From Chaetoderma sp. LZ-2023a (Eukaryota > Mollusca > Caudofoveata > Chaetodermatida > Chaetodermatidae): DNA of 64,000 nucleotides. The first letter of the stretch is position 1; each line of letters begins with the position of its first letter. The notes under the pieces were generated by a model that saw only the letters and a program-made list of their open reading frames with translations, made no database searches and was not told the DNA's origin. This document shows, piece by piece, positions 4,111 through 60,958 of this stretch. The stretch lies in the NCBI GenBank assembly GCA_034401795.1, contig CM067369.1, positions 140,442,496 through 140,506,495 of the forward strand. Direction: 5' to 3'. The position numbers and the translations under genes are program-made.

Positions 4111-4119
4111 TTGACTGCG

Positions 4120-16990: not shown

Positions 16991-17079
16991 CGGTTATCAC
17001 GGTGAGAACCACTCTGGTGCTTCTGGCCAAGGAGACAGTGCCACTCTTGCACTCTTTACGTCCGCCTCTCTCCCTAGGT

Positions 17080-18480: not shown

Positions 18481-18489
18481 GACCGTCTT

Positions 18490-30675: not shown

Positions 30676-30870
30676 TTTCACTTCAAGAGTATACTTACCT
30701 CCCTAATACTTTTGATATTGCTAAATATTGGCTTTCACTCAATAAACACTCAGATTTAAAACAGTTAGGTGCCCCTACTGGGCAGGGAGTCAGAGCGTAG
30801 TCTGGCGGATGCCAGCCCCACCACCGCGCATGCGCAGACTAGCACTTCCTCTTTGCTAGATTATTGGCAA
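30676..30870 (+). repeat. Left inverted terminal repeat of DIRS element 3
   Basis: The reverse complement of about 37,508-37,700, essentially identical apart from a small difference near the inner edge. It starts TTTCACTTCAAGAGTATACT. Confidence 0.92.
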
Positions 30871-36807: not shown

Positions 36808-37329
36808 ATCGGTTTATATTTTTTGAGGTGATTTCCTCATTACTTATATATATCACAATTAATTTATGGAAACACCCACTTTTTTGGGCCTGCATCAGTC
36901 TTTACCGATGGGAAGATGATGTCAGCAGCCATTTTCAACAAGGTCAGTCTTGTTCATGTGTTGTCCGTTGTTGATTGTATTGTCACGATTACCCGTTATT
37001 AATATGGTGATGGTTTGTGTATTTGTGTGGTTCATTGTTGAGAGTTACGAAAATGGAGCTTTTTCGTCTCTGTCCTGTAGTACATGGCACTTGTACGTAG
37101 AGAGCGTATAGGACATTGAGGTCAGTCGACTCTTCCTCCCAGGAAGGAGGGGGGGGAGCGCATATGACATTCGGTCATCTCTCATACATCGGTCGTGTTA
37201 TCCGATGGTTAGTCAAATCCTGACTGTTTTTTCTTACAGTTTCAGAAGTTTAAGTGCCTTAAACGCAGAAAAGCGTATTGGGATGAGCTGGTCTTTTGAC
37301 CTCGCCTCCCTCCCGCCAGATTCACTTTC

Positions 37330-37721
37330 GAATTCTGGCAATATCAAAAGTATTAGGGAGGTAAGTATACTCTTGAAGTGAAATAAACGAAATCTAGGAT
37401 TTCTTTTTTCACGAGAGAGTTGATACTTACCTCCCTAGATACGGACCCGGCCTCTCCACCCCACAGAGGCTCGGTCTTCAGGCTCTTAATAGTTGCATGT
37501 GTGTCAGCCAATAATCTAGTCAGAGGAAGTGCTAGTCTGCGCATGCGCGGTGGTGGGGCTGGCATCCGCCAGACTACGCTCTGACTCCCTGCCCAGTAGG
37601 GGCACCTAACTGTTTTAAATCTGAGTGTTTATTGAGTGAAAGCCAATATTTAGCAATATCAAAAGTATTAGGGAGGTAAGTATCAACTCTCTCGTGAAAA
37701 AAGAAATCCTAGATTTCGTTT
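37330..37721 (+). repeat. Internal complementary region and right inverted repeat of DIRS element 3
   Basis: The stretch at about 37,345-37,440 equals the reverse complement of the left end joined to that of the right end (GTATTAGGGAGGTAAGTATA ... GATACTTACCTCCCTAGATA). The right inverted repeat follows and ends near TTTCGTTTA at 37,721. Confidence 0.92.
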
Positions 37722-38067
37722 AATCCCAGAGTCAACTTGAGGTAACTATACAGGTAAGCTGTTGAATCTTTTGAAACTATGGTGGGCTGTTGCTGCCATA
37801 TGTTGCTGCTTATGGCAGCACCAGCTACAAAGAAAAATTAAGTTCAAACTATTCAACAGAAAAATTTTAAATTGATCAAATACATACAATTCGTACATTT
37901 TTGTGACATAATTTCGATTTTCGTGATGGAGCTACACCATTTTCATATGACCTCAGGTAACATGTGACATATTTGATTATGATGTCAGATACTTGATTGT
38001 ACTTGATTGACAGATCATATACCTACATTGCTGACACATATCTGAATGTTATCTGTGTCTATTTCAG
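37722..38067 (+). other. Intron 2 of the HECT gene, last part
   Basis: A hairpin of the TGTTGAATATTTT family at about 37,763-37,861 has CTGTTGAAT opposed to ATTCAACAG around a TTGCTGC centre. After it comes the stretch that resembles 25,400-25,530, and then the acceptor ATCTGTGTCTATTTCAG. Confidence 0.65.
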
Positions 38068-38144: not shown

Positions 38145-39718
38145 GTATGTTAAATGTTTGTACGATGTCTTGAATGTCACACAGACACCTTGTAGCTTAA
38201 TCAGTTGAACCTGAAACTCAAAATTCAAAAGATCATTCCAATTTAATTAATATTCTTTAAAATTTTGACAATAATTTAACTGCGAACTGTTGTTGCCTAT
38301 GGTAGCTACAATTTCCTGTCAAATTAGATTCGAAATAGTCAACAACTTAACTGTATAATAATCTTGAAATTAATATTCTTGAATTTCAGTGTTCAAGCAG
38401 TTATAATGGTTAAATTTTGTCAAGAAAATTTCAATTTTCTAATAGACTTACTTTGCGGACCAGGAGAAAACTATTTTCAAAGATTTACAATAAAATAACT
38501 GGTTCGATTATCGAGCTCGCCAATCCAGTGGTAAATTTTCAAAAATAGTCTACAATATCTTAAATCTCACACACAGATATTGTGGTTTTAGACCTTTAAT
38601 GGTCAAATTTGAACAATGGACATTTTTCAAGACCACTGAGGAAGCTGTTTTTGGCTGGTTTGGCCATTAAAGGGTTAATTATTTCGGTCAGTGTTGTGTA
38701 GATGATATTTATCCCCATGCATTTCAAAAGTGAGAGACTGTTTTTCTTGACATCAGTCTATGAATGCAATTAGTAATGGCTGCCATTGCATGATGGGTCT
38801 CTGTTAGTTGGAAAATATTATATTTGACCCTTTAGAGTAATTCAATGTTTTAAAATTAACCCTTTAAGCCTTAAATCTGTTCAATAAAATTTCCATTTTC
38901 TCAAAGAAAATCAATTTGCTGAGCAAAAGAAGACTATTTTTGAAAATTTGTCAGTGGAATGACTGGCTCGGTTATCGAGCCAGTCATTCCAGTGGTAAAT
39001 TTTCAAAAATAGTCTGTTGGTTTGCAAGTGAACATTTCTCAAGACCACTGCATAAGCCATTTTTTGGCTGATATAAGTGTTCAAGGGTTAAGCTCAATCA
39101 TATGCTTACAGAGCGACTTGAAAATTTGAGGATAATTAGACGTAAAGCAGCAACAACTTTCAGTCAATTAGTTTAACATTTTTCAAGAGAATATTTGGGA
39201 CAGCCTAGTGAATGGCATAGCTAGGTATTGTAAAAAATTGCTTAAGTCCTCAAATGCAGGGCTCAAAATAAACCATGTTTACATGTACAGTGATTTGTTG
39301 TTGTGCTGGTAAAATACTTATATTAGATGCACTGTGAACAAATGTATTATGTTTTATTAAGGTTTCATATTTAGTGTTTAATTACCTTAGGCCTAAACCT
39401 CTGGTATTTTAGAATGGTCTTAACTATCAGCACTCACTGTTAAAATAAATAACGTAACAAAAGATTTATTCTGACTACTTTTCTCAGCCTTGATCCACTA
39501 CACAAATATACGCTATTAAGCCTTTAACACTCAAGCCAGCCAAAAATTGCTTCTCAAGTGGTTTTATATGATCTTCTCATAGGGTAGTTTTGAATTGTAG
39601 TTTATAAATAAGCTACCTAGGCAAACAGATTGAAAAAGTTGGCACATGTTTACTCAGAATCCTGCTGGTGAATGACTGAGCTAACAAAGGGATTTTGTGC
39701 TTTTATTGGACATAATAG
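38145..39718 (+). other. Intron 3 of the HECT gene, first part: palindromic repeats
   Basis: It holds a TGTTGAATATTTT-type hairpin at about 38,255-38,345, TTAACCC-family palindromes at 38,395-38,676 and 38,858-39,091, and another decayed hairpin near 39,120-39,190. The remainder up to 39,718 is unassigned and AT-rich. Confidence 0.65.
38858..39091. repeat. Palindromic MITE-like unit (TTAACCC family), best-preserved ends
   Basis: It starts TTAACCCTTTAAG and ends GTTCAAGGGTTAA, an inverted terminal repeat bounded by TTAA. The centre is a near-perfect palindrome: 'gaagactatttttgaaaatt' ... 'ggctcggttatcgagcc' ... 'aaattttcaaaaatagtc'. Length is 234 bp. TTAA borders with CCCTT ends suggest a piggyBac-type MITE; Kolobok also uses TTAA. 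Confidence 0.8.
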
Positions 39719-40029
39719 TCCGTGGGCTGGAGGGGCCCACCTGGATATCCCCCCCCCCCGCCACTAATTGACGAAACTATATTTTTCTAACAGCTTTCGA
39801 TGTCCTCTTTAAGATTATGTATGTTAACATGTGATAAACTGGGACTCAATATGGTTTTTGATGGGTTATGTTAGAGCTAATACCCACAGTGAAGCAGACC
39901 ATATTACGGGTTAGGGGTATTAAAAACTGAACTATCTTTTGATAGAATCGTTGTAGTTTGGTGATCGACCACTCAAAATGTTGCTTATAGTATCGTCTAT
40001 GATTGCATATGGGTTACATGAAAATCAGG
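39719..40029 (+). repeat. Outer part of the left terminal repeat of the long-TIR transposon
   Basis: The reverse complement of about 56,565-56,876 with high identity; the main difference is the length of the C/G run near 39,751. The repeat resumes at 53,004 after the DIRS insertion. Confidence 0.92.
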
Positions 40030-40205
40030 TTCTACTTCGAATAATACTTACCAGATGTACTATTATGATAATGTCTATTATCTAGTCTAGCTCAAAATAA
40101 ACAATTAAAACGCCGCACTCTCCTGGTCCTGCCCATACTGTGTCCGGGAATACCATAGCCGCAGGTACCGAGTCAATTCCCAATCACAGTCAGATTCGTC
40201 TATTT
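40030..40205 (+). repeat. Left inverted terminal repeat of DIRS element 4
   Basis: The reverse complement of about 52,808-52,965. It shares AATACTTACCAGATGTACTA at the tip and the GGTACCGAGTCAATTCCCAA block (on opposite strands) further in. Confidence 0.92.
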
Positions 40206-40792
40206 TGCGCTTTTGAAAAGTCGCTGTTTTTCTAGACCTAGTTAATTGAGCAATAAGGAGTTTAGCGAGCGTATTTTACGTGGTTATCGGTGGACTCATG
40301 GAGGAATTGGGAAAATCATCACAGGGGCAGGTTGTATCAATCTAGAATTTATACATTCATGCCATAATGACTGTTTGAAATTTCCTTAAATTGGCACATT
40401 GTTTTAAAATGTTAGCCATTGTTGGAGTCGCTTCTGTACCCGTTAACTTTTAGTTTAATTTGGGTACTCGGTTAATTTTCTCTTGCGACTCGGTTCCTCT
40501 AAATATGGATGCGCCCTTAGCCAAGATGGCAGCGCCCATGAATTATGTCGTTCTTGGCCTGGTGTGTCTATGCACTCTGTTTATCGCCGATATTAGCTTT
40601 CGCTTCATTGTCGAGGGTGTTTGTAGAGATCGGCGATGTAGCCTTGGTGATTTAACGTTAGTTAAAGGCTGAGTTGTGTGTTTTAAAAAATTTTCACTCA
40701 AAAAAGTTTCAAATATCTCCTGCCTAAGAACTTGATTATCATTAATTTAAGAGAAAGTTAATGTGTTTAAGAAATCTTAACTATCAAGTCGA

Positions 40793-42805
40793 TTGTGCGT
40801 ATTGCTCGTCATCATTTGTCATGTGCAGCGTTTTAATTTTTCCCTGTGTTCGCAGAAACCTAAAAATCTGGATACGTTGTGCCAAAAGTGCAACCGGTTC
40901 ATGAAACGGAAGTATTTGGGACATCACTGCATGGCATGCGCCCAGTGTAAGGTCGGGAGCCCTTGTGATGTGTGTGTGAAGTGGTCGTCGGCAATGGTGG
41001 CAGAGTTCGACAGGGATCGGCGTGCGAGACTGGAGAGGATCGCGAAGGATAAGGCAGCGAAGTTGCAGCAGGCGTCGTTGATGGGACTGGAAGGTCGGCT
41101 GAATGACAGGATGGATTCAGCTCTGGGCGTATGGGCAGCCCAGTTCAAGGCAATGTTTGAATCATTGCAGTCCACGGTCCCGGTGACGCAAGCTGGTGCA
41201 GGACAACCATTAGGTGGTCCGGCTAGTTCTGCTGAGGGTCATGCACCTGCCCCTTCTCTGTCCTTGGCTCAAGAGCCGACGATAGAGGAGGAAGATTTGT
41301 TGCTGATGGAAGATTCCGGCATGCCGGATCTTTCTAAGACGTCAATGCCCGGTACGTCCCAGGGGTCGCTCTCGGGATTAGTACGGGTTTGCCAGGCGGA
41401 CGGTGATGTCGACGTTCCGTCGGGCATTTTCCATCCGCTATTTGTGCAACCGGAGGGGTCAGCAGAGCCGTGTTTTGCGGTTCCTGCTGGTATCCCGGCG
41501 GCGTTAGGTGCGGCTCCTATCGGAATGCCGTCGCCTGCCATAGGTAAAGCGGTCGTGGTCCCGACTCCCGTGCTGGAGCCAACGGACTGCGGAGAATCCG
41601 GGTCTGGCGATTCGTTAGACACCGGTGCCGCTGGTAGTCGCGCTGTGGATGCGCTCTGTCTTGGCAGAGACATGTCTCATAGCGCTCAGCATGGATCGTC
41701 GGTGGCCCTCTCATCTAAGGGAGAGAGGGAGGATGAAAACGGGAGTTCATTGATGGACGAGTCCGTTTTCTGCACCGGAGCTGAATGGGTGCAGGTCCTC
41801 GGATGGATGACCAATCGTCTCGGGTTGGCATCTGATCTGGGATCTCAGCGCGATCCGGCGATGGAGCGGATGTCAGAGCGAGCGGCTAGCGCTCTGTCAA
41901 GTGGCTCTTCTGCCATGCCGACACTCCCGTTGGACACGCAGACTTCTGACATGCTGGAAGTTGCGGCATACCGTCTGGTTCAGCCAGACTATGCATTGCC
42001 AAAGGCCCCGAAGGGGATAAGGAGTAGGGTCCGTTTTCCGGAGCTGGCCTATCATCAGTACGCCCGTGTTCCACGGTTTTCCGTTGCGGAACGAGAGGCT
42101 CTGAATAGGCCGTTGGCTGGGAAAGCTAAGGGGCGGTCGCATCCTTTGGTTTCCCAGACCAACAAAGACCCGTTCAATGAGCTCACGCTCATTGAAGATG
42201 CGGCGAGGGCAGCCATGGCTGCGCTGTCGCACGGGTGTACCGTCCTGCAGGGTATGCTGGACTGCACGGTCCCGGCGTTGTTCGGGACACCATGCGCCTG
42301 TCTCAGGATTGCCAGGGCCAGGGTGTTCACTAGGACATTGGCAGAAAGGCGGAAAATGGTTCTCGATTGTGTAGAACCAGGACCAGAGATGAGGGCTGCA
42401 TTGTCTTCTGCGCCTTTCATAGGTCCAGGCTTGTTCGGCGGCTCGGCACGACAAGCTCTCTCCAAGGTCGCTTCAATGGTTGCAGGACAGGAGGTAGTCG
42501 GCAAGTCGTGGAAGTCGACTAAGAGGACACAGCCGCAGCAGTCCTACAGGCAACATCGCCAGGAGCAGCAACGACAGCGTCCTAGATCGCCCTTCCGTCC
42601 TTCTGGCCGTGATGCCCATACGCCATCCGGATCACAGGGACCTGGCCGTTCATCCTCATACAAGTCCTCTAATAAGAGGCTGTATGAGGAAGACAGGAAG
42701 GGTGGCGGTTCGGGCCGTGGCGGCTACCGTAAGGATAGCCGTGGCGGCGGTTCTGGACCGTCGTACTACAAGAAACCGAGGGGCGGCCGTGGGGCTCGTT
42801 CCTGA
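40793..42805 (+). CDS. gag-like protein of DIRS element 4
   Basis: An open frame of 670 residues. The Cys/His-rich head (CQKC, GHHCMACAQC, CDVCVKW) has the same spacing logic as in element 3, showing this module is conserved across DIRS subfamilies. An acidic Ser/Pro middle and a Gln/Arg/Gly-rich tail (QQQRQRPRSPF, RGGYRKDSRGGGSG) follow. A pyrimidine-rich CTGTGTTCGCAG lies just before the head, again a possible leader splice acceptor. The upstream short frame at 40,460-40,672 is leader sequence. Confidence 0.85.
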   Translation: MCVLLVIICHVQRFNFSLCSQKPKNLDTLCQKCNRFMKRKYLGHHCMACAQCKVGSPCDVCVKWSSAMVAEFDRDRRARLERIAKDKAAKLQQASLMGLEGRLNDRMDSALGVWAAQFKAMFESLQSTVPVTQAGAGQPLGGPASSAEGHAPAPSLSLAQEPTIEEEDLLLMEDSGMPDLSKTSMPGTSQGSLSGLVRVCQADGDVDVPSGIFHPLFVQPEGSAEPCFAVPAGIPAALGAAPIGMPSPAIGKAVVVPTPVLEPTDCGESGSGDSLDTGAAGSRAVDALCLGRDMSHSAQHGSSVALSSKGEREDENGSSLMDESVFCTGAEWVQVLGWMTNRLGLASDLGSQRDPAMERMSERAASALSSGSSAMPTLPLDTQTSDMLEVAAYRLVQPDYALPKAPKGIRSRVRFPELAYHQYARVPRFSVAEREALNRPLAGKAKGRSHPLVSQTNKDPFNELTLIEDAARAAMAALSHGCTVLQGMLDCTVPALFGTPCACLRIARARVFTRTLAERRKMVLDCVEPGPEMRAALSSAPFIGPGLFGGSARQALSKVASMVAGQEVVGKSWKSTKRTQPQQSYRQHRQEQQRQRPRSPFRPSGRDAHTPSGSQGPGRSSSYKSSNKRLYEEDRKGGGSGRGGYRKDSRGGGSGPSYYKKPRGGRGARS

Positions 42806-42829
42806 CGGGTTTCCGGCGGAACCAGTACC

Positions 42830-43608
42830 GGTGGCTTTGGAGGCGAATGGAGTCGAGAATCTTCACCCAAGCGATTTAGCGTCTTATCAGCCAATCTTGA
42901 CCGACAGCTGGGTGCAGATTCCTTCCGTCGGAGGCAGACTTCAGTTATTCCTAAGCCAATGGGAACAGGTCGTGCGCGACTGTTTAGTTTGTCAGTGGAT
43001 AAGAAACGGCTACGATCCGGACTGGCTCATCCATCAATCGTTAGTTCCGTTAACCTCGACTCCAATATGGACTCCTGTTCCAAGGGAATCAGATCGTCTA
43101 GACGCCATTCGGTCAGAAATAGAATCTCTTCGTCAGAAGAAGGCGATTCATCTAGTCAAAGATCAGTCTTCACTGGGCTTCTATTCGATCATGTTCCTCG
43201 TTCCGAAGCGTACCGGAGGATGGAGACCAATTCTCAATCTCAAACCGTTGAACAAATTTATTCTTTCTCCCAAATTTCAGATGGAGACGGTAGCAGCGGT
43301 AATGACAGGGCTGAGGAAAGGCATGTGGGGAGTGTCGATAGATCTGAAGGATGCATATTTTCATATTCCAATGTCAATTCCTTTTCAGAAGTACCTTCGT
43401 TTTGCATTCCAAGACAATGTTTGGGAATTCAATGCTCTCCCGTTTCGGCCTGACCACAGCTCTGAGGGTCTTCACCAAGGTTGTTCTCGCCATAACTTCT
43501 TTACTTCACAGGAGAAACATAGCTGTTCACACGTACATAGACGACTGGCTGCTAAAGGCGGGGAATCCAGTCACTCTGCGCAGCAATCTGCAGGTAGTCC
43601 TAGCCTTA
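42830..43608 (+). pseudogene. Reverse transcriptase of DIRS element 4, part before the insertion
   Basis: Fossil pol part with GGWRPILNLKPLNKFIL, DLKDAYFHIPMSIPF and the catalytic YIDDWLLKA block near 43,537-43,563. It is cut by the TTAA-flanked insertion at 43,613. Confidence 0.85.
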
Positions 43609-44099
43609 TTAACCCTAAGGAACCTACGAGCCGTCTAGACGGCGCGCAAAAAACGTACAAATAAACCTACGAGCCGTCTGGACGGTTTTCAATAATTGGA
43701 CGTAGAGAACTACGCGCCGTCTGGACGGCTTTAAGAGCACCAGTTTTCGATCGCTAAATACGCAAGCATTACGGGCGTTTTATCCAATCAAACTTAGCAT
43801 TACATTACGTCAGATGATTAAATTTTATAAATCCACTGTTGATTGGTCAATTCAGTTTGTTTACAAATTTCTACGGGAAAATATAAATAGTTTTATGTGA
43901 ATGAAATTCCTAGCGTAAAATCGTCAACGATAGCGTGTCGATTCCTTTATTTAACCGAGTACTCGATTCCCTGATGGTCGGAATCGCTTAGTGAGAATAT
44001 CTAACCTAATTTATAATTGCGTCGGTAAAATATTACATACAGCTGAATAGCTACACTGACGCCTACAAGATTTAAAGTGCATCCTTACATAGCTTGCCC

Positions 44100-47000
44100 A
44101 TTAATACCATTATATCACACCCGTCATTTAGCTTCTAGGGAGATATTGGCGTGCGTCTACGGTCTAATTTCTGTTCCTCAATCATCTATCATGATAACGA
44201 ATGTTACTGGGTCAATACGGGCCCGTAACATGCATTATTAAAGTAATGCCAGTCATAAGACAATAGCTTGCTATTATTGCCCTTTGAAATCACCTTTGTT
44301 GACTGTTCCAGTTTTATTTCCGTTTTCTATTGTTCTTTCATCTTATAAATGTTTCTCCTCTTTTTTTCTTCAGGATCATATGGCGAATAGGACAGTTATC
44401 TGGTTGAGATTTCATGAAAATGATGATTCTGTAATCCTATCTTCTGCACTATTTTATTAACCCCTACCATTGTCAAAATTTTAAATTTTCAAATTAAATT
44501 AAAAGAACTGGTGTTCTTGTCTCACCAGATTTGGTGGAAGATGTTGCTGTCGTAGATAGCAACATCATCTACCAAACCAAAGTTGTTAAAAAATGTACAC
44601 TAGTTTCTATTAGTAGAAGTAGAACAGTACCAGTTTTCCAGGCTATTGGCACATTAAAAGATAGAATATTGACATAAGAGTGGTAAGGGTTAAATCTGAT
44701 GCGCTTGATGTAAATCTACTGTACCATTTTATTTCGAATCACTTATTGTATAAGCTGCCATTATAAATTACATGTATGTCAAATACAGTTTCTTCTATGT
44801 AAGAGTGTCATATTACTTAGTAGGACTGGTGATTAAATTGTTGAATATTTTGAGATCGATTGGACTGGAAGATGTTGCTGCATTAGGTGACAACGTGTTC
44901 CAGTGGTAAAGCTTGCGTATTAAATTAAATAATACATGAATACTGTATTATTTGAAAGCTATCAGTGTAAATATCAAATAAAGTTTACTTGAAGTGATAG
45001 GGAGAGAGAGAATCTCGTCTTAGGTAATCAGACTGGACTATGTATAGTAGATTTGTTGAATATATCAAGTCCACTTTGATTGGAAACTGGTGTTGTTTTG
45101 GACAACAATAGATTCCAATTAAATTTGTCAAAATATACTCAACAGATTGTTTCTTTAGATTGCAGGTACTTTTGATCTTTATTGCTATTCATTCCTGGAT
45201 TATTACCCTTGCCCTAAGGGGAAAGAGGGTATTATGTGTGTGCATGCGTCCAGTATTGCATCTAAAAAACTACTGATCCGATTCGTTTAAAATTTTAACA
45301 CACCAAACCAACATAACCTAAACAAGGGTTTCTAGACTTTGGCTGTGATCTGTGTGATCATACATAAAGATTTAACAAATTGGATATGACAAAAACGGTA
45401 GGGTGGTCTCGGCGGTGGTTTACAATCTCCGATTACTCCTGTTCATAATGTTATTTATCAAGCATCAAGTCTTCGACAATGCTGGTAAGTGAGTGATAAC
45501 TAGATTGCTTGGTCGATGACGCATTATAGCAAATCCCCATGCTCACCACTTTGACCTCATTACCCATCCCATCCCTGGGGGCGTATACTCTGCACTCCAT
45601 ACTCACATACCAAATTTGTTTGAATTAGTTTCATTACACAGAGACTGTAGTGGATTGATTTGAAAAATCTGGATGTCATCAGAGGAAGTGATCTGTGAGA
45701 GCAGGAGTTAAAATCAACATGAGCCAGAGGCTAGTAGAAATTGACCAGGGTTAATACAATGACCAGCCCAATGGTAACAATTCATTTGTCAACCCGTTAA
45801 TGGTCATGGTGGTCAATGAATGCCTCTGCAGTGATCTTAAGAAATGTTGATTAGCAGAGCAAGACTTTTTGAAAATTTACCACTAGAATGCTCGGTAATT
45901 GAGCCAGTCATTCCAGTTGTAAAATTTCAAAAATAGTCTTCCCTTGGTCTGTATAGAAAATTTGAAGGGCTAAAGTAGAATCTAGTAATCACTAGTCCTA
46001 TCTGAACGTAGTGGCTCATTTGGCTTAATTTCAATTCATGGAGAGGGTGTCAACTGGTGTGCGAGAGTGGTCTATGAAAAATCCAGAAATCTAGATAAAT
46101 CTGGAAGACTCCAATCTCTGCTTACAATAAATTTCTTGACCTTTTAACCCCTTCTCCAACCCAAAGAAATAAATGTCAGGCAATCCACAATTAATAGGGC
46201 AACCCACACACCAAATTTCTTTGAATTCCACACAACAGTTTGGGAGTAAAATATGAGACATTTTTTTTGGATATTTGAACTTTGGACCCCACCCCTGACC
46301 TTCAGTGGGCGGGGCCAAATCTAAATGTTGTCTTGCAAAGCGCAATCATATGGGTAACCGCCATAACAAATTTGGTTGAAATCGACCCAACTGTTTGGGA
46401 GGAGATAGCATGATGGACATACAGATAAGTGGATGGAGGCAATTATATCCCCATTTTTTCAAAACATGGAGATAATGAATGGACTCAAGGAGACAAGGTA
46501 GGTATGGGGATAATGAATGGACAAGGTTGGTAGGTATAATTAATTCAGTCATCATACTAAAATGTAATTTTCTTTCGGATTGAGAAATTAGGCTACAACC
46601 ATCATTTGCCATGCCACATTGTTTTAAGGACTTGTCACGAAAGGGTTAAACATAGTAAAAACTGGAATTGACAAAAGGAAGGAGAGCAGAAATTTAGATT
46701 TTCTAATGGATAATTTTTTAGCTATGCCCCGCCCATCTCTACATAAGCTCCATCGATGATTTGCGCGTGTTGGGATCAGTTTATATACTTTGAATCCTGA
46801 ATTCCAAATTTCATGGTAACCATAGATACCGCTAACTTGGTGAATATTTTGAAACCAATTTCAAGTACTTTGATTTGACTGAAAGCTGTTGCTGCCCAAC
46901 TCACCAGGTCAGCAAAGGCAAACTAATTCTAAAATATTCACCAGTTTTCCTTTATAAATTTTAATTTTTTCTCATTAAAGTGAGATATGGGCAATTCATC

Positions 47001-47850
47001 TCTTACCTTGATCTTGTGCATGTTACATTGTGTAGATTTCACTCTGCTGTCGCTGCTACTCACATAACAAATTCAGTTGACGTTTTGCCCCTCCCCCATC
47101 AGCCTCTTCCGACCCGAGCAGTGTCACAGCCTAATGTATTAGGTTGTCTCACATTCTACACCCATAGGGCCATGATATGGTAAATCACCAGATTTGGTTA
47201 TATTCCTTTAACAGTCTTCCATCAACCCTACCCCCCCCCCCCCCCCTCTGGGAATGGAGCCTAGTGTAAATGGTATCTCCCAATCCACAAGCATATTGGT
47301 AATTTACACAATAATTTTGATTGAATTCTACCAAAAACTTTCTGAGGAGATGGATGGACAGACAGACAGATGGAGGCGATTGTAATATCCCTGCAGTTTT
47401 TTCAAAACGTGTGGGTATAATTAAGAGATTAAATTTAATTTATTGATATTTGATTCAAATCCCACCCAATCTTAAATGATACATAGAGCTTATGTGAGAT
47501 GCACATTAGCTGAGCGCTCGGGAATACGGTTGATAACAGTCGGCAGTCGATCCAGAACAGCCGCCGGCATAGCTGTCAGCCATTGATGTGTGTAGTAGGT
47601 GATCATGTTTCGAATGTACATCATCATGTTTTAGTTCAAATATACTGTTTCCATACAAAAATTAGATTATAGAGTAACACATGTCATCAAGTTTTTATTT
47701 TTATAAAATCCATGTTAGTAAATCCATTAGGCGTAGCAGGAAAAACTGAGTCCGTTTAGAGTTTAGAAGCCATCGCCCATCAGTCACCTGCAAAAAATAG
47801 GAAGGATAAGTTAGAAATATCCAAATTCTAGAAGTGTTATATTAAGACTT
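44100..47850. other. Interior of the TTAA-flanked insertion: host-like repeat matrix
   Basis: It holds hairpins of the TGTTGAATATTTT family at about 44,475-44,600, 44,838-44,915, 45,055-45,145 and 46,845-46,945, and a TTAACCC-type palindrome at about 45,790-45,975. Two related stretches at about 46,340-46,480 and 47,300-47,420 share 'aggagat', 'gatggaggc' and 'ttttttcaaaac', and a C-run lies near 47,229. Minus-strand frames at 46,091-46,612 resemble no family I know. Confidence 0.55.
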
Positions 47851-48062
47851 TAACAATCAAATTTTTTCATGAAAATTTAAATTTTCTCAGATAATGCCCA
47901 TATGCAGACCAAGAGCAAGTCATTCCAGTGATACATTTTCAAAAATAATCTTACTTTGGTCGGAAAATTTACATTTTCCTCGACAACTGCAGCAGTTTTG
48001 GTCTGACTCAAATGTTAAATGGTTAACAATATACATGTACGGCGCAAGGTCATAGGTATATA

Positions 48063-48185
48063 TAGTCCGAGTCTGCTCTGACTCAACCCGTCCCAGTGAC
48101 AGATATTTGGACAGACTGTCACAGACTGACAGTCTGTCCAAATATCTGTCACAGGGGCAGGTTGAGTCAGAGCAGACTCAGACTA
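48063..48185. repeat. Long near-perfect palindrome, 59-nt arms
   Basis: Arms 48,063-48,121 and 48,127-48,185 with a 5-nt loop CAGAC. The inner 24 bp and outer 20 bp pair without gaps; a few differences lie in the C-rich part between (CCCGTCCCA against its partner). It lies within the TTAA-flanked insertion and is much longer than the MITE-type hairpins nearby. Confidence 0.92.
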
Positions 48186-48499
48186 AGGGATACACTGGTA
48201 AACATTATGACCCGACAACGGGTGTTATGGTCATACACCACCTTCAGATTTTAGCGCATAAATGAAATGAATAATAAAATAAATGGTGGGCATATATCGT
48301 CCAAGGAGGGAGTATGACTACTAGTTACTGGATTAACCTTTTCAATCGACAAGAGCGAATAATAAATTTGCTACGAATGTTTCAAAATTCTGTTGAATAT
48401 TTTGAAACTAATTAAACTGGCTAAGGCAGCACCAGCTTCACATTGGATTCCAAATATTCAACATCTTACATTTACAATGACTGTAAATGTGGAGTTCTG

Positions 48500-49977
48500 G
48501 AATTTCAGGTTCAAATGTGACAATTGTTTTTGATTTTGGCCACCCAAGTTTATTTCAGGGCCCCGGTTCTCTATATCTGTGATCAGAGGATACTGGCCAC
48601 ACAGTAAATGGTGATAGAATGTTTGTAACCAGGGCAATAGTGAAATATTTGTTTTCTAAGGAATTATTAGTAAGTTCCAGTCATCAATGATTATTAGTAA
48701 ATGTGCTGTTACTTGTAAGTTTTCAGTTACTCAATGACTAATTTAACTGAGAAAGTTATAGATTGTGTTAAGAGAGCAGCTGAACCAATAATATATAAAT
48801 CAATTTCGTTTACCTCTGGTCGCGAAATCACAATAAGGTTATAGATAAACAATCCGATAATCTCAATCATCGATGCGTGTCTTTGTTTACAATTTCCGAG
48901 ATAACTTACTCTTCAAATTACTAGCATTAATTAGGCCGAGTTGAGATGCGAAAGTTGTCAAATATATCGGCATCCCACTTCCCGATTGGCAATATCGTTA
49001 ATCTAGTGATCTGTCTACTTCTTAGTTTGTGGCGTACAAGAAATATGCATAGATTGACATATTTGAACACGCAACTATTTTGCAAAACAGCTGATCGTGT
49101 CGCCATCTTGCCGGAAAAATTAATATTCATGTATTCCCGACCAATCAGACGCATCAATCTTATAGTACGTCATACGGTGTTGCCAATAACGGGTAATGAG
49201 CTTGGTACTCGTATTTTAGATACGGGTACAATTCTACAAATTCCTGTCGTTCTCTCGCGATCTTTCACGATAAACGATTCCTATTTGGGACGCCGCTACG
49301 AAAAAATGTCCGATGCTAGAGAATCTTAGTGTAAAACATTCGCGTTCGCTTTTTAAACGGCTGAGTGCACCCAGCAATGCTACATAGCATAAAATTTGCC
49401 ATTTATTCGCTGTCAACGCTGAGAAACTCTGGTATGTGTTCGATTATGTATAAAGGAATTACTCAACATTGAATGAGGCCTCCCCCCCAAAATAATGACC
49501 GGAATTTCTCGAAATTTTACGGTACCATGACATAATATAATTGTCGTTTTCACATCTTATCGGATGAAAACCTTCATGAAACTTTGGTATCTGTTAGTTT
49601 TAATACCATTGTGATTAAATTTATCAATGGCATTTGTAAAATTAAAAAAAACTTCGATAAACTTTGCAAAAATAGACCAATGTATTTATCCTATAAGGTG
49701 TGGCCATTTTGAGAAGCAGGTTGACTAACTAAAATATATTTTATTCATACAAATTTTATATGTACTTAAAGGTATTTTATTGCCCTTTCTAATGATATAT
49801 AGTTTTATATATAGTGATCTGTTACTTTGCCAAAAATAGTTAATACAGTTGGAATGGTAGCACTGCGACGCTATCACTCCATTACCGCTAACAGGCTAGG
49901 TTTCTAAGCAAGTTTCTAGCTTTTGGCTGTAGGGTTTCTAGCACTTTTTTTGTAAATTCTTGGTAGGGCCCAGAGGG
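48500..49977. other. Right part of the TTAA-flanked insertion, unassigned
   Basis: The + strand frame 48,946-49,329 (127 codons) shows no domain I recognise. The last 130 bases hold repeated 'ggtttctaa/gc' motifs before the terminal AGAGGG. No clear repeat otherwise. Confidence 0.45.
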
Positions 49978-49981
49978 TTAA

Positions 49982-51339
49982 AGGATCTAGGGTGGATTGT
50001 GAATCTAGAGAAATCAGAACTGACTCCATCCCAGGAGTTTGTTTATCTGGGAATCTTTTCCAATCTCAGGGATGGCGTAGCATTTCCGGCGGAGAGCAGA
50101 GTCAAAAGCCTGATTGCAGTTTTGGAGTCGGTTTCTCTAGGAGCCTATCTGACGGCGCGCCAGTTTCTCAGGATGCTGGGGTTACTAGTATCTTTAGAGA
50201 AGGTGGTTCCATATGCGGCACTCAGGCCAATTCAGATGTATCTAATGTCATTCTGGTCTCTGAAAACGGATTCGTTATCTCTGAGGATACCAGTAAAAGA
50301 ACAGTTGATATTCCACCTTCAGTGGTGGTTATCGGAACAGAATCTCCTGCGAGGTGTTCCTTTACAACCCCCTCAGCCTCAGATGTCCATCTTCACGGAT
50401 GCATCGTTGACGGGTTGGGGAGCGGTATTGGACAATCAGTCAGTGTCAGGGGAATGGGATCGGACCAATGCGCAGAAACATATCAATGTGCTGGAACTAT
50501 TAGCGGTGGTATTTGCACTTCGAAAGTTCAAGAGTCTAATTCAAGACAAAGTTGTCCTAATAAGGACAGACAACTCAACAGTGGTGTCTTATTTGAACCG
50601 CCAGGGCGGGACGAGATCACCAGAGTTGTGTATGATGGTTTGGAACCTTCTGCTGTGGTGCCAAGAGAGGAATATTATTCTTCGGGCAGCACACATTCCA
50701 GGAAGATTGAACATCCTAGCGGATGCTCTCAGTCGAAGGACGGTTTGTCGTCCGACGGAATGGCAGCTCAACCAATCGGTAGCGGAGGTTCTATTCAAAC
50801 AATGGGGCAAGCCAAATGTGGACCTGTTTGCGATGAATCAAAACGCAAAGATGGTCACTTACGTGTCACCGATCCCGGACCCGCTAGCCTTAGCAGTAGA
50901 CGCACTGGCGATAAGTTGGGAGGGAATGTACGCGTATGCGTACCCTCCAACAATTCTCATCCTGAAAGTTCTGACAAAGATAAGAGAGGGGATGTGCCAA
51001 GTACTACTGATCGCCCCGTATTGGCCAGTCCGATCATGGTTTACGGATCTGCTGGACCTTCTGGTCTGCAATCCAATCTCTCTTCCAGACGCAAGAGATC
51101 TAATCTCTCAGAACAAGGGTCTGTACCTTCACGACAGACCAGAAATGTTCAGATTGACTGCATGGATGTTGTCAAGCAGCGTGCAATTGAGGGTGGCTTT
51201 TCTGAGCAAGCAGCGAAGTTTGTTGCTTCAGCCAGAAGAGTTTCAACCACAAAAACATATAATTATAGAATCAACAAATTTGCACAGTGGTGTGAGAGAG
51301 GAGATATTGATCCCTTTTCTGCATCTGTTCAACACGTAG
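49982..51339 (+). pseudogene. Pol of DIRS element 4, part after the insertion
   Basis: Fossil pol part. The end of the reverse transcriptase (KSELTPSQEFVYLG), RNase H (FTDASLTGWG, HINVLELLAV, RTDNSTVVSYLN, HIPGRLNILADALSR) and the conserved post-RNase H segment (NVDLFAMNQNAK, AVDALAISWEG, YAYPPTILI) are all readable. Confidence 0.87.
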
Positions 51340-52182
51340 CAGATTTTATCTGTCATTTATACGAAGTTGACAAACTTGTACCTTCTACCCTAGCAGCATA
51401 TAAGTCTGCATTAGCTTCAGTCATTCCCCGTCTCACTGTTGGAGGAGTGGAGAATGACACCTTGAATGAAGTTATCAAAGGAATGAGCAATCTGCGACCT
51501 AGACAGCCAATTCCTATTCCATCTTGGAATCTATATCTTGTTCTACAGGTTTTAGGACAGGCTCCTTTTGAACCGATTAGATCTATTGATATTGTTAACT
51601 ATTAAATCAGTTTTCTTGGTTGCAGCAGCGTCGACGAGAAGGAGAAGCGAAATTCATGCGCTTTCTGCCGAACAAGACCGTTTTGTCGTCACGGGTGAAG
51701 GTTTAAGACTACTTCCGCGTCTTTGTTTCCTGGCAAAGAATCAGTCACTTAAATATCCAGGACAGCCGATCAATTTGCCAAGTTTAACTAGACATGACCC
51801 AAACTCTTCTGTTTGGTGTCCTGTTAGATGTCTTAAAATGTATAAGAAACGTACTAATGAGTGGAGAGACGACCCAAAATCTCTGTGGTTATGTCTCAAA
51901 GCTCCCCATTTACGTGCCTCGAAATATACTATTTCTCGTTGGATAGTTGACGCTATTAAGATGTCGCACAAAATCGCTACAGGAAAGCAGATTGATCGTG
52001 CGAATGCCCATCAGGTCCGAGCACTAGCAGCAGCATCGGCCCTTTATAAGGGTGTCTCATTAGAGGAGGTGATGTCTGTAGCACAATGGCATGCCGAGTC
52101 GTCATTCACTGATTTCTACCTTCGCGACATCTCCAGCTCACTTAATCCAGTAGCCATCGCCAATCTGTCGAATCTAAACTAA
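51180..52182 (+). pseudogene. Tyrosine recombinase of DIRS element 4
   Basis: Fossil recombinase. The blocks seen are NLRPRQPIPIPSWN, the catalytic Arg in STRRRSEIHALS, the HxxR block AHQVRA and the Tyr in FTDFYLRDI. Its similarity to element 3 is clear, but it belongs to a different subfamily. It is broken once. Confidence 0.88.
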
Positions 52183-52640
52183 GCCACTTCCGACCACTAC
52201 TTCGCACACATCACTAAAGTCTTCCGCCTACACTGAACAAACGCTATGCACATGACTGAGTACGACCGTGAAAAGATCAAGCACTCAAAATGGTGAGTGT
52301 TTACATTAATTAAGTGGCTATAAATATGTTTACTTACAGTCAAAATACCAGACTGCTTATTTTATACTGGACTGCCCTAGCTGAGACTTGGGTCTGACAC
52401 GGGTCTGGTGGGTGTTGCATCCCCAGTGACAGCCCTCTGAATTTTGTGCGGACAAAAGAGGGGGGGGGGGGAGCGCGGTCTAGACCATGGAAGTTTAGCA
52501 CTATGAGTCAGATAGCAGAACCCAAGCGTATGCCAGGGTTCTAGTCTCTTCACAACCTTCTCTGTTGGATGGTAGTTGAGTGCTGGTTCGAGCCTCACCT
52601 CCTCCCACCGGCATTTTCTGGCTGTCGAAATCTGGAGTTT

Positions 52641-53003
52641 ATCATAATAGTACATCTGGTAAGTATTATTCGAAGTAGAATCAAAAAAGCATCCGCTTTT
52701 TTTTCTACAAGAATTCTTAATACTTACCAGATGTACTATGGCCCTGCCTCAGCCGCCCCGCTGAGGTGAGGCTGAGCTGCTTTCGCAGTTTGCCAATGCA
52801 AACATAAGACGAATCACTGTGATTGGGAATTGACTCGGTACCTGCGGCTATGGTATTCCCGGACACAGTATGGGCAGGACCAGGAGAGTGCGGAGTTTTA
52901 ATTGTTTATTTTGAGCTAGACTAGATAATAGACATTATCATAATAGTACATCTGGTAAGTATTAAGAATTCTCGTAGAAACAAAAGCGGATGCTTTTTTG
53001 ATT
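52641..53003 (+). repeat. Internal complementary region and right inverted repeat of DIRS element 4
   Basis: The stretch 52,641-52,741 is the reverse complement of the left tip followed by that of the right tip (AGTACATCTGGTAAGTATTA ... AATACTTACCAGATGTACTA). The right inverted repeat then runs to about 53,003, where long-TIR transposon sequence resumes with CACAATGAGATC. Confidence 0.92.
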
Positions 53004-53665
53004 CACAATGAGATCTGCAGAGGTCAACAGGTCACAAATCTTCGCCACAGCTTAAAATCTAGCAAGTGTATGTTGCTATCACCGACCAAGCACCTGTAAA
53101 GGAACACTCTAGTTTTAACAGCTTAAGATTGATCAAAAGGCACCATTTGACAAATATAATGAGTAAAAGTTTACTCATTTAACAGAATATTGTTACTATG
53201 ACAACTGACAGCATGTCCAATTTTTGATAATCGATGAAAAATGCATTCATTGTAAATAATTAAGTAGATTTTGATAGAATCGTTGTAGATTGGTGATAGA
53301 CCACTCAAAATGTTGCTTATAGTATCGTCTATGATTGCATATGATTTACATGGAACTCAGTTTCATAATGAGGTCGGCAGAGGTCTAAAGGTAACAAATC
53401 TTCGCCACGGCTTAAAATCTAGCAACTATATGTTGCTGTCACTGACCAAGCACCGGTAAAGGAACATTCTAGTTTTAACAGATTAGGATCGATTAAAAGG
53501 AACCATCTGACAAATATAATGAGTAAAAGTTTACTCATTTAATAAAATAGTGTCACTATGACAACTGACAGCATAGCCAATTTTTGAGAATCGATGAAAA
53601 ATGCAATCATTGTAAGCTAAACTTGAAATGAGCATATCATCGAACCGAAATTGTGTAGAGCAATA
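53004..53665 (+). repeat. Inner part of the left terminal repeat of the long-TIR transposon
   Basis: It matches the reverse complement of about 55,925-56,565. It shows the internal unit twice: AGGTC-containing starts at 53,009 and 53,368 give a period of about 359 bp. Confidence 0.9.
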
Positions 53666-53983
53666 AAAGAGCATTTAAAATGTTTTTATTGTTGCTTGAT
53701 TTACCCACCGACTATAAATCCACTAGCTATATTTGAACTCCTCTTAATTCGTCACTGTCACTATTATCTGCCGAGTCGTCTCAATTTTCGCTATCTTCGT
53801 CAGTGGAACTGTATTCCTGTTTATTCTATTCCTTTTCACATTCCTTCTCTAGAATATTAGCCAACATAGATGGCAGTATCTCACCATCACACCACTTGGC
53901 TCGAGTCACTGTTCACTCTATACAGTCCAGCCATTATTCTCAGTGGGTTCAGGGATGTATGGCTTTGGTACGTGGGCTCGCTT

Positions 53984-55640
53984 TCAAATAGTTACCTGAT
54001 AGTTAACCCTCTTTATGTGCTCGCAGAGGCAAACTCTCGGGGGAGGTAAGGTGGATAAGTCAACGTTTTTCTTGAGATTGATATTTTTCTCTGCATCACC
54101 ACATTTTGCCATTAACATTGAGAAACGAAGTCTGTCAACGTTTGTTATGGGAGTAACCTTGTACAGTCCGCAGGTGAAATCTTCTAATTGAACAAAGAGA
54201 TTCTCTGTGATGTCCCATGGCTCACTAATGGTTGTATCACATTTGGTGAAGGCATGAAAACCCAGAAGGGCAGAACAGTAAAGCGGTGTAAAATTCTTAG
54301 CCCATCTTGAAATGCTTAACAGCTTTCGATTGTTTTCAGAACCAGTATCAAATAATACGCGTGTCTTCATGATTTGGGCATAGTACAGGAGAATTAAAAC
54401 TACATCGCCAGGTCGACTTCTGATACGCACAAAATCATAGCCCATAGTTGTATAAGCACAATAGAGAATAACCCTTAATTGTATCTGTTTCTTCTTGGTC
54501 AGATTCTATGGCTTGTTTTCAAGTTTTTTTTTTTTATTAGTTCAAATAAATCTATATTCCTTTCAAGTCTCTCTGTAATAAAAGTCTCTTTGGCCAGTTT
54601 CCCAAATGACTTGGCAGCCATGATATCGGTTTGGATATGGGTAGGTGCAGGAGCACCAGCCCCAATACAGAACAGCTTATCATTATAATCGAGACTGAAA
54701 GGATTCATGAAGCTTTCTACGGACTCCATTACATTTACAGTGGCTACCTCACTTTTGCGTACCTGTGAAGGACGGACATCCCAATGTCTATTGTTCCTGT
54801 CTGTCTGGTCTGTCATATCTGCCATTTGGAGCATTGTTTCCACATATCTTGCTCGTTCATATACCGTCTCACCAACGTCGATGTGCATCATAGTTATTCA
54901 AGATAACAGATACGCCAGCCACGCTTCCTCCTGCTCATGCATGTGATATTGCGTGCTTCATAAATGTCTTCTCTATTGTTTTGTATACTGCCCCCAAATT
55001 TCCAGGCACAGCAGATCTTGCAAAACTTATAGCACCTATCTTAATCAGCTCTGTTGCTCCGGGGTGCGATTCTTCTTTGCTTGCCAAGAAAACAGAAAAG
55101 TAGGTAAGATACCTTGCATAATTCTGCCCATCAAAACTAAAGAACAGGTCAGCCATTCGATTACGACATGTTCCGTACAAATAGTAATTGTTTGTCTTAA
55201 CTGCATTTAGGAGAGACCACAGCAACCAAACATGGTCCATATAAGATAACCAAAACTGGGCAGTCTTACCTAATTCGCCATTACTCGCAGTCGCAAGTCT
55301 GAGTAGTCATTTAGATATGAATGAAACGCTGTATCATTCGACAATAGTTCGAAATTCTCTTTGGTTCTTACTTCTAATAATGTGGTTACTTTTGCCAATG
55401 AATTTGGTGGCAAATTCTCTAATAATCGGACCCTTTCGTAGAATGGTATTTGTAGAGTAGCAATCGTTCAAGACCTTCAGCCATTGCTTTGTGGCAGTAG
55501 ATGGCCCGACTATAATTCACACCAGACAGCACACCTTTAATAGATCCGGAAGACATCAGGCCAGATTCTAGTAGAATCTCAGTGAATCCAAATCCACTCA
55601 TCTTCTTTCCTATATGATTTTCATATAGGCGCATGCCAAA
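53984..55640 (-). pseudogene. Decayed transposon protein gene (NYARY / FHAFTxCDTT family)
   Basis: Four minus-strand pieces in order: 55,634-55,419, 55,240-54,935, 54,891-54,499 and 54,445-53,984. They lie in different frames with short gaps. Readable motifs are GKTAQFWLSYMD (just upstream of the second piece), FDGQNYARYL, ESHPGATELI, ERARYVETML, ESFMNPFSLDYNDKL, ALLGFHAFTKCDTTISE and HIKRVNYQ. This order matches, from memory, a large unnamed family of repeat-encoded proteins in cnidarians and molluscs, where the GFHAFTGCDT block lies in a PIN-like nuclease-type fold. Frameshifts or stops separate the pieces; introns are the other possibility. Its place between long inverted repeats suggests it was the element's own transposition protein. 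Confidence 0.65.
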
Positions 55641-55924
55641 TGAAATGTACCAATCATAACTATGTGATCCTTGTAGTAGTCTGGACCTTTCCTAAGCTTT
55701 CATACACTCGCCTAGATCAAAGTTCGTTATGGTATATTTCTGCCCAACATCTTCCGATGCCTTTTTGGACATTCTTAGACACTCTTTTACAGTGGCATAT
55801 TCTGTTATTGATCAAATGCTTTCTAATTACATCTTACTTCTTCGATTTTTTACTCCTGATGCTGTATTTGTTGCTTGATTAGCATATAAAGTCCATCTAT
55901 ATCTAAAGCAATTACTTTACACAA

Positions 55925-56876
55925 TTTCGATTCAATGTTATGCTCATTTCATGTTTAGTTTACAATGATTACATTTTTCATCAATTCTAAAAAATTGGCT
56001 GTTCTGTCAGTTGTCATAGTAACAATATTCTATTAAATGAGTAATCTTACTCATTATATTTGTCAAATGGTGCCTTTTGATCAATCTTAAGCTGTTAAAA
56101 CTAGAATGTTCCTCTACTGGTGCTTGGTCGGTGATAGCAACATACAGTTTCTAGATTTTAAGCTGTGGTGAAGATTTGTGACATTTTGACCTCTGCTGAC
56201 CTCATTAAGAAACTGATTTGCATGGAAACCATATGCAATCGTGAACGATACTATAAGCAACATTTTGAGTGGTTGATCACCAATCTACACTGATTCTATA
56301 AAAATCTACTTAATTAGTTTACAATGATTACATTTTTCATCGATTCTCAAAAATGGGCTATTCTGTCAGGTGTCATAGTAACAATATTCTATTAAATGAG
56401 TAATCCTTTACTCATTATATTTGTCAAATGGTGCCTTTTGATCAATCTAAAGCTGTTAAAACTAGAATGTTCCTTTACTGGTGCTTAGTCGGTGATAGCA
56501 ACACACAGTTGTTAGATTTTAAGCTGTGGCGAATATTTGTGACCTTTTGACCTCTGCCGATCTTATTATGAAACCGATTTGCATGTAACCCATATGCAAT
56601 CGTAGACGATACTATAAGCAACGTTTTGAGTGGTCGATCACTAATCTACAATGATTCTATCAAAATATATCTCAGTTTTTAATACCCATACCCCTTAATA
56701 TGGTCTGCTTCACTGTGGGTATTAACTCTAATATAACCCATCAAAACCATATTGAGTCCCAGTTTATCACATGTTAACATACATAATCTTAAAGAGGACA
56801 TCGAAAGCTGTTAGAAAAATATAGTTTTGTCGGGGGGGGGGGGGGTGTATCCAGGTGGGCCCCTCCAGCCCACGGA
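55925..56876 (-). repeat. Right terminal repeat of the long-TIR transposon
   Basis: About 0.95 kb, inverted relative to the left repeat. The two internal units lie at about 55,960-56,310 and 56,320-56,665. A G-run of about 14 (56,832) sits opposite the C-run of the left repeat. Confidence 0.9.
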
Positions 56877-57288
56877 ATACAACATAGGTTCAAATAATAT
56901 AGAGATTACAAACTAAATCTAAAATGGCTTTTATGGTTCTAGTTAGTTAAAAGTGAAATTAGTGTACCATATACACATTATCTAATCCAATTAACTCTTT
57001 AATGACGAAGCACGCCAAAACCGGCCTCCACAGTTGTCCTGGGGAATGCCCATTTGCAGGCCAATAGAAGGCTATTTTTGAAAAATTTGCCAATGAAATG
57101 ACTGACTCGATAACAAAGCCATTCATTCCAGTGGTAAAATTAAAAAAATTACCTGTTGGCGTGAAAATGGCAGTTCAATAAGCAAATTGTTTGATTTTCT
57201 TGACCAAATCTAGCCTTTAATGGCTTAAAGAAGAGTATTAGTCTATGTGACATCACCAATGTGTAATATATGTTGCTATTTTATTCAG
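56877..57288 (+). other. Intron 3 of the HECT gene, last part
   Basis: It holds a decayed TTAACCC-type palindrome at about 56,995-57,228 (TTAACTCTTTAATG ... CTTTAATGGCTTAA, centre 'gactgactcgataacaaagcc'). It then runs into the acceptor TTGCTATTTTATTCAG. Confidence 0.65.
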
Positions 57289-57453
57289 AGCTCCCGCTGA
57301 CATTCCTAAGCTGTACATTAATCGACGTGCAGCCGCTGATCACCGTGATGACCCAACTCATGACCCAGAGTACAAACAAAGTGTATTTGCACAGATATAT
57401 AATGTGCTGAGGACATATGGTCGAGATCGTTATACACAACCATTGGACTACAG
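57289..57453 (+). CDS. HECTD4: HECT E3 ubiquitin ligase (HECTD4-like), internal exon d
   Basis: A 165-nt exon with acceptor TTTTATTCAG and donor GTGAGA. The first base completes the Glu codon left by the exon at 38,068. It then reads 54 codons, including APADIPKLYINRRAAADHRD, DPEYKQSVFAQIY and RYTQPLDY, and leaves AG, which the next exon completes to Arg. The charged DHRDDPTHDPEYK stretch leads directly into the HECT domain in giant HECT ligases of this type. Its intron upstream is 19.1 kb, almost all transposon. Confidence 0.8.
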
Positions 57454-57761
57454 GTGAGATTGCTATATGTACAGTCTATCTGTATGGATAGGCATAGGAG
57501 GTATAGACAACCTCTGTTTAAAGAGGTCATAAAATCAGGGTAACCTAACTCAGAATTACAATCTGTATTTAACCTTCATCATGCCCTTATCATGCTGATG
57601 CCACAATGAATAAGAAGGAGATTTGTGTACCTTTGTTGCTAAAACAGAGAGCAGCGGCTTACAGCAGCAGTGTTTCCAAAACACCAATTGTCTAAAAGAG
57701 AATGGAAGTTATGATCTCAAATTCTTTCTCCCTATAAGATTAAATGTACTAAATATCAGGT

Positions 57762-58262: not shown

Positions 58263-58358
58263 AAATTTGTATTAGTCTTGTAAACTACGATTTGGATTAT
58301 TGAATTCTTTAGCCTTTGTCCATAGCAAGAATAACCCTTTTGTCACTTATGTATGTAG

Positions 58359-58527
58359 ATGGTCAAGTCGACATGAGCAGTGGTGGGAGTGTAAATTCCT
58401 GTCAGAGGGGATCATTGATCAGGGTGGAGGCTTTAGAGACAGTCTATCTGACCTGGCGGAAGAACTGTGTCCAAGCAGTATTGACAGCCAAGTACCATTA
58501 CCATTCTTTGTCAGAGCACCAAACCAG
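58359..58527 (+). CDS. HECTD4: HECT E3 ubiquitin ligase (HECTD4-like), exon e: start of HECT domain
   Basis: A 169-nt exon between TGTATGTAG and GTACAA. Its first base completes Arg with the previous exon, then 56 codons follow: [37 protein letters not shown] and [11 protein letters not shown]. The [13 protein letters not shown] block is the first strand-helix signature of the HECT N-lobe (the GEGxxDxGG region of the family). The protein takes ubiquitin from an E2 onto a C-terminal cysteine; that part is encoded downstream, outside the window. The QWWECKF and PLPFFVR blocks point to HECTD4 rather than HERC2 or UBR5, from memory only. Confidence 0.85.
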
Positions 58528-58790
58528 GTACAATTGATAAGTTCACAGTATGTTTTATATTCACTTATGAATATGCCTATAAATATGATTAGCATAAAAT
58601 TGTTAGCAATTTGTTACAGCTTCATTGCTAATGTCAGTATGGCATTAAATTGACACATTTTCAGATGCTAGGATGGGTACCTTGAAAAGGCCTTAAATAC
58701 AGGAGATTCATAAGATTTATATACTAATCAGCTCCCAGTTAAGTTGGTCTCAAAATATTAACCCTTTTGGAACTCAATTTTTAGCTCGAC
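58528..58790 (+). other. Next intron of the HECT gene, unassigned part
   Basis: AT-rich with no feature seen. The next HECT exon is not found in the remaining 5.4 kb of the window. Confidence 0.5.
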
Positions 58791-59975: not shown

Positions 59976-59990
59976 AATAAGAAAATATTG

Positions 59991-60850
59991 AATATTAGTA
60001 CATCTCTGTACCCTCCTCCATGTAGACTAAGTAAGTAACCTCCACGTGAACACACACGTATGCACACCTCTTGCTGAACATTAGTACATCTCTGTACCCT
60101 CCTCCATGTAGACTAAGTAAGTAACCTCCACGTGAACACACACGTATGCACACCTCTTGCTGAACATTAGTACATCTCTGTACCCTCCTCCATGTAGACT
60201 AAGTAAGTAACCTCCACGCGAAGACACACGTATGCACATCTCTTGCTGAACATTAGTACATCTCTGTACCCTCCTCCATGTAGACTAAGTAAGTAACCTC
60301 CACGCGAAGACACACGTATGCACATCTCTTGCTGAACATTAGTACATCTCTGTACCCTCCTCCATGTAGACTAAGTAAGTAACCTCCACGCGAACACACA
60401 CGTATGCACACCTCTTGCTGAACATTAGTACATCTCTGTACCCTCCTCCATGTAGACTAAGTAAGTAACCTCCACGTGAACACACACGTATGCACACCTC
60501 TTGCTGAACATTAGTACATCTCTGTACCCTCCTCCATGTAGACTAAGTAAGTAACCTCCACGCGAAGACACACGTATGCACACCTCTTGCTGAACATTAG
60601 TACATCTCTGTACCCTCCTCCATGTAGACTAAGTAAGTAACCTCCACGCGAACACACACGCATGCACACCTCTTGCTGAACATTAGTACATCTCTGTACC
60701 CTCCTCCATGTAGACTAAGTAAGTAACCTCCACGCGAACACACACGTATGCACACCTCTTGCTGAACATTAGTACATCTCTGTACCCTCCTCCATGTAGA
60801 CTAAGTAAGTAACCTCCACGCGAACACACACGTATGCACACCTCTTGCTG
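59991..60850. repeat. Minisatellite, 86-bp unit, 10 copies
   Basis: The anchor ATTAGTACATCTCTGTACCC recurs every 86 bp at 59,994, 60,080, 60,166 and so on to 60,768. Units are nearly identical and vary mainly at CACGTG/CACGCG, GAACAC/GAAGAC, ACGTATGC/ACGCATGC and CACCTC/CATCTC. Each holds a local palindrome GTACATCTCTGTAC. It is not a CRISPR, since there are no variable spacers. Confidence 0.97.
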
Positions 60851-60958
60851 AAGAGACAAAACATTTCAGGTAAGCATACATTAAATGTTATATATAGGGG
60901 CATACTTAACCCCTCACCAACACATCCCTGAAAAAGTATATGCTTATCGATATAAAAC

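Follow-up and report, generated by a model that had tools for sequence, protein, structure and literature searches.

The DNA considered here is a 64,000-nucleotide stretch of the caudofoveate mollusc Chaetoderma sp. LZ-2023a (assembly GCA_034401795.1, contig CM067369.1, positions 140,442,496 to 140,506,495), referred to below as the window. Exons of the host gene HECTD3 flank a nest of mobile elements in which a DNA transposon holds a DIRS retrotransposon, and this in turn holds an insert flanked by TTAA. Taken together, the features of the nest make it very probable that the outer element is a likely member of the Academ superfamily, that the DIRS element integrated into it as a circle at a TTC triplet, and that the innermost insert, likely of piggyBac type, was mobilised in trans. 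The parts of the nest, in window coordinates, are the following.

39,720-56,875, coding strand minus: outer DNA transposon, a decayed deletion copy that is likely Academ (AcademX-type) and measures 4,184 bp without the DIRS element
39,720-40,029, plus strand: left arm, outer 310 bp, from self-alignment
40,030-53,004, plus strand: DIRS1-like retrotransposon with TTC at both edges, about 6.6 kb without its insert (body 40,030-53,001)
43,609-43,612, no strand: left copy of the TTAA duplication
43,613-49,977, no strand: TTAA-flanked insert in the DIRS reverse transcriptase, 6,365 bp, ends CCCT..AGGG
49,978-49,981, no strand: right copy of the TTAA duplication
52,647-52,739, minus strand: internal complementary region of the DIRS element, whose reverse complement agrees in 98 of 100 bases with the sequence right end, TTC, left end
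53,002-53,664, plus strand: rest of the left arm after the DIRS element, with the second subrepeat of about 356 bp and an uninterrupted target (53,336-53,395)
53,897-55,811, minus strand: broken gene of the outer element, from which six open pieces, in frames that change, served as search queries
55,911-56,875, minus strand: right arm, two subrepeats of about 356 bp, both uninterrupted at the DIRS target

Self-alignment of the window pairs the two arms of the outer element on opposite strands in two pieces, 39716-40032 against 56879-56570 (90.9% identity, 439 bits) and 53002-53664 against 56572-55911 (89.0%, 863 bits). When the DIRS element is set aside, the joined left arm measures 973 bp and the right arm 965 bp, with 90.6% identity over 964 sites (Kimura two-parameter distance 0.101), and the sharp ends of the element (CCGTGGGCTGG; CCGTGGGCTGGAGGGGCCCACC) are at 39,720 and 56,875. 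Each arm contains two tandem subrepeats, and in pairwise comparison the four show 88-91% identity. These alignment scores, combined with joints that are exact to the base, rule out chance as an explanation. The nest had been described in a first-pass annotation of the same DNA, the coordinates of which hold within 1-3 bases: its outer ends (39,719 and 56,876) and arms (about 0.93 kb) needed slight adjustment, its DIRS end at 53,003 falls inside the TTC core, just beyond the measured end at 53,001, and the body that it gave for the TTAA-flanked insertion is exact.

The DIRS element sits 310 bp inside the left arm, with the TTC core at 40,030-40,032 and again at 53,002-53,004, and the arms align without gaps across the joint. 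The target also survives uninterrupted at three places in the outer element (CAGTTTCATAATG, CGGTTTCATAATA and CAGTTTCTTAATG), once in the left arm and twice in the right, and all three of these copies carry TTC at the site, as integration at a triplet without target duplication predicts. One of the two right-arm copies reads CAAATCGGTTTCATAATAAG; the other two of the three lie at 53,336-53,395 and 56,180-56,235 (reverse complement). The first-pass annotation had recognised a single empty site in the right repeat; the string that it quoted, caaatcggtttcataatgag, occurs on neither strand of the window and is one base away from the right-arm copy. The base that precedes TTC is A on the circle side, T in the empty copies and G in the filled left arm. 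Since the circle side and the empty copies differ at this base, the core that they share is exactly TTC, although it may be an NTT core followed by C by chance, and the G of the filled arm is presumably a later or an older substitution. The TTC at both edges, its presence in the three empty copies and the complementary region jointly indicate that nothing was lost or duplicated beyond the core.

This arrangement closely resembles that of the DIRS1-like elements, for which the available text of PMC3266345 describes recombination between the 3-bp junction of a circle and an identical genomic triplet, the target not being duplicated. The shared traits are inverted terminal repeats, an internal complementary region that overlaps them at the 3-bp junction, a reverse transcriptase, RNase H and methyltransferase set together with a tyrosine recombinase, and the lack of target duplication. 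There are two differences from the elements in that text. In its Table 3, 23 of the 28 elements have NTT at start and end and none has a TTC/GAA junction, although the TT is kept here and the element may be one of the NTT class in which the C is shared as well; moreover, at about 6.6 kb without its insert, the DIRS element of the nest is longer than the 3.8-6.3 kb given there. By analogy, its ends would have been joined into a circle by way of the complementary region, and the circle would then have been integrated at TTC by the element's own tyrosine recombinase.

The coding capacity of the DIRS element is in keeping with this classification and is distributed as follows, all on the plus strand.

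40,781-42,802: gag-like open reading frame (ORF), 674 aa, open
42,806-43,635: 5' part of the reverse transcriptase, in two frames (42,806-43,453 and 43,348-43,635)
49,942-51,336: 3' part of the reverse transcriptase, RNase H and a weak Dam-like methyltransferase match
49,956-52,179: tyrosine recombinase, in two frames (49,956-51,602 and 51,556-52,179)

Significant Pfam matches were obtained for RVT_1, RT_RNaseH and the SAM-like integrase domain (the N-terminal domain of tyrosine recombinases), and weak ones for Dam (E 0.01) and the catalytic phage-integrase domain (E 0.028), so that the domain set of DIRS1-like elements, with a methyltransferase-like domain, is represented. The second frame of the reverse transcriptase holds the YIDD motif and runs into the TTAA-flanked insert at 43,613; coding is broken by this insert and by frame changes near 43.4 and 51.6 kb. 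The weak match to the catalytic recombinase domain is backed by an identity of 67%, across 192 residues, with the recombinase end of a relative at 33.8-36.8 kb, and the gag-like ORF shares 27% identity with a DIRS relative over 296 alignment positions. Three relatives were seen in the window. A full-length one, 2 kb to the left of the nest (30676-37722), has three open ORFs, 714, 746 and 989 aa long, of which the latter two are in different frames and share an overlap of 2,131 bp; in the available text of PMC3266345, long ORF overlaps are absent from the mollusc elements. The other two, at 939-7910 and 14161-20856, have broken frames, and their complementary regions, read by eye, have the junction near ATT and not TTC.

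At the place where the reverse transcriptase is interrupted by the TTAA-flanked insert, the DIRS relatives are uninterrupted (3/3, at 3.63, 17.75 and 34.6 kb). According to the available parts of PMC10045372 and PMC9587614, TTAA is used by piggyBac elements, with CC..GG ends, and by Kolobok elements, with 5'-RR ends. The insert combines a duplicated TTAA with 5'-CC..GG-3' termini (CCCT..AGGG), a likeness to non-autonomous piggyBac elements that makes it likely to be one of them. No transposase was found in the 10 ORFs scanned, of the 62 of at least 40 aa lying wholly within the insert; no Pfam family scored above its cut-off in them, so that the insert is likely non-autonomous, and their sole weak match was DUF3932 (E 0.092). 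Absence of a transposase is expected of a non-autonomous copy, which would have been moved by an enzyme supplied from elsewhere. The insert departs from such piggyBac elements in its length of 6.4 kb, with no transposase in the scanned ORFs, and in having GCCGTCTRGACGG repeats at its left end only (three copies within 43630-43728 and none elsewhere in the insert). It also contains repeats of its own, two of which are listed here.

45,780-45,980, minus strand: copy of a short dispersed repeat that matches eleven further places in the window, in some cases weakly
48,063-48,185, no strand: inverted-repeat element of 123 bp that has TA on either side and arms 93% complementary to each other

The dispersed repeat has two copies in the insert (45.78-45.98 and 47.91-48.03 kb), and with the 123-bp element they probably constitute a fourth level of nesting, beyond the three levels counted in the first-pass annotation. 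In the window at large, this short repeat, partly palindromic and with a core like CCAGTGGTAAATTTTCAAAAATAG, occurs at twelve places between 21299 and 59924.

The window is rich in repeats, and a mis-assembly that joined unrelated repeats would also bring such elements together; this is nevertheless a very remote prospect, as the inner joints obey the rules of their elements to the base, with a TTC core that equals the DIRS junction, a TTAA duplication and seamless arms.

The order of the insertions, outer element, then DIRS element, then TTAA-flanked insert, follows from containment. The first-pass annotation had taken both this order and the location of all three events in the intron as settled; the order stands, while the place does not follow, given that either container could have moved afterwards together with its contents, through enzymes acting in trans; that the insertions took place at the present locus is inferred. 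Divergence agrees with the insertion of the outer element before the DIRS element. Between the outer arms there are differences at 91 of 964 sites, whereas the DIRS complement and the DIRS ends disagree at 2 sites in 100 (Fisher test against the arms, p 0.008) and the two inverted ends at 1 site in 158, with a gap of 2 bases in addition (p 1.3e-5 against the arms); these two DIRS comparisons have sites in common. In theory, the extensions of a DIRS element are 100% identical to their complement, as stated in the available text of PMC3266345. These figures support the order and do not prove it, because the divergence of the arms may partly predate their insertion.

Cargo transport could also have delivered the nest, or part of it, ready-made: in this scenario it was built elsewhere, and the outer element with its DIRS, or the DIRS with its TTAA-flanked insert, arrived through trans-acting enzymes. 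All three elements look defective or split, so that help in trans would be needed in any case, both the DIRS ends and the terminal 310 bp of the left arm are still there, and no sequence feature ties any of the insertions to its present locus. Such transport is nonetheless improbable, since three separate hits seem likelier than the mobilisation of a 17-kb element in which one arm is interrupted 310 bp from the tip, or than reverse transcription of a DIRS element enlarged by 6.4 kb, and self-alignment revealed no second copy of the nest within the window.

With respect to the outer element, the homologues of its broken gene form an animal protein family of about 1000 residues, the C-terminal half of which has a predicted XPG/FEN nuclease fold. 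An XPG-type nuclease alongside the transposase is the distinguishing mark of AcademX, and the predicted fold therefore suggests that the outer element, to which the first-pass annotation gave no family name, is likely an Academ of AcademX type, as judged by comparison with described features. Its movement would have depended on a DDE transposase aided by the XPG-type nuclease. Two members of the family, P0019 and P0022, come from records under the name Candidatus Thiodiazotropha, a bacterium that lives in symbiosis with bivalves, and are probably host DNA in those assemblies.

The likeness to Academ thus lies in the inverted ends and in the pairing of a predicted transposase-like half with an XPG/FEN-like nuclease half. 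The element differs in being 4.2 kb long without the DIRS (the mean for Academ in bivalves is 5,565 bp; PMC10294476), in its arms of about 0.97 kb with their paired subrepeats, and in the absence of the N-terminal portion and of some of the nuclease; the broken gene is without residues 512-735, approximately, of P0001, and without the 506 and 624 residues that lie upstream of the match in P0009 and P0019. Several observations weigh against the assignment. The available text of PMC10045372 gives Academ a target duplication of 3 or 4 bp (and names a nuclease without its type), and no duplication of this length adjoins the sharp outer ends, an ACAT found 6 bp out on both sides having a 13% probability by chance. 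No transposase family is among the 13 Pfam families matched by any of the 32 homologues (E <= 5), DUF6589 remains below its cut-off in the members of the family that were tested, and the best fold matches for the transposase part, weak ones, are to hAT (Hermes). Finally, the named mollusc homologues are gastropods, outside the bivalves in which Academ has been found almost exclusively (PMC10294476). For these reasons there is a lesser, though real, chance that the element, while genuine, belongs to another DDE superfamily or to a lineage without a name, with an XPG-like nuclease; the predicted XPG/FEN fold, a nuclease type that marks AcademX when paired with a transposase, tips the assignment towards Academ.

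The host gene is HECTD3, whose exons were recognised on both sides of the nest by comparison with PDB 9r85.

21,656-22,075, plus strand: ORF with the HECTD3 exon for residues 348-418
57,251-57,454, plus strand: ORF with the HECTD3 exon for residues 470-522

A further ORF (58,276-58,650) matches residues 521-579, and the residue-470 match starts 414 bp from the end of the nest. No exon was recognised for residues 419-469, the one candidate ORF that was tried giving no match, and the exact intron is consequently not fixed; the placement between HECT exons c and d made in the first-pass annotation is thus borne out as to the gene, and as to position between the exons for residues 348-418 and 470-522. 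Further along the window (59989-60852), self-alignment also shows a tandem array of about ten copies of an 86-bp unit, 97-99% identical.

Nested transposons are common, and a nest by itself changes little; in the available text of PMC3903597, nested insertions occur in over a third of the candidate coding Mutator-like elements of maize and rice, which similarly hold younger elements within older ones. The present nest differs from those in that one insertion struck an end repeat, and the site is still empty in the sister copies of this repeat. For both inner insertions, the window itself preserves the empty site, in the sister arms for the DIRS element and in three DIRS relatives for the TTAA-flanked insert. 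These built-in empty sites make the 3-bp-core model of DIRS integration checkable to the base without recourse to other genomes, and the DIRS ends with their internal complement act as an internal clock. Attention is also drawn to an animal protein family that Pfam barely covers and that has a predicted XPG-like nuclease half. We therefore put forward, tentatively, that the nest may constitute a base-exact natural test of DIRS circle recombination at TTC, without loss or gain (one site filled, three sisters empty), and that its outer element may represent an unannotated lineage of animal transposons in which the arms are kilobase-long and built from tandem subrepeats, and a Hermes-like transposase is fused to an XPG/FEN nuclease.
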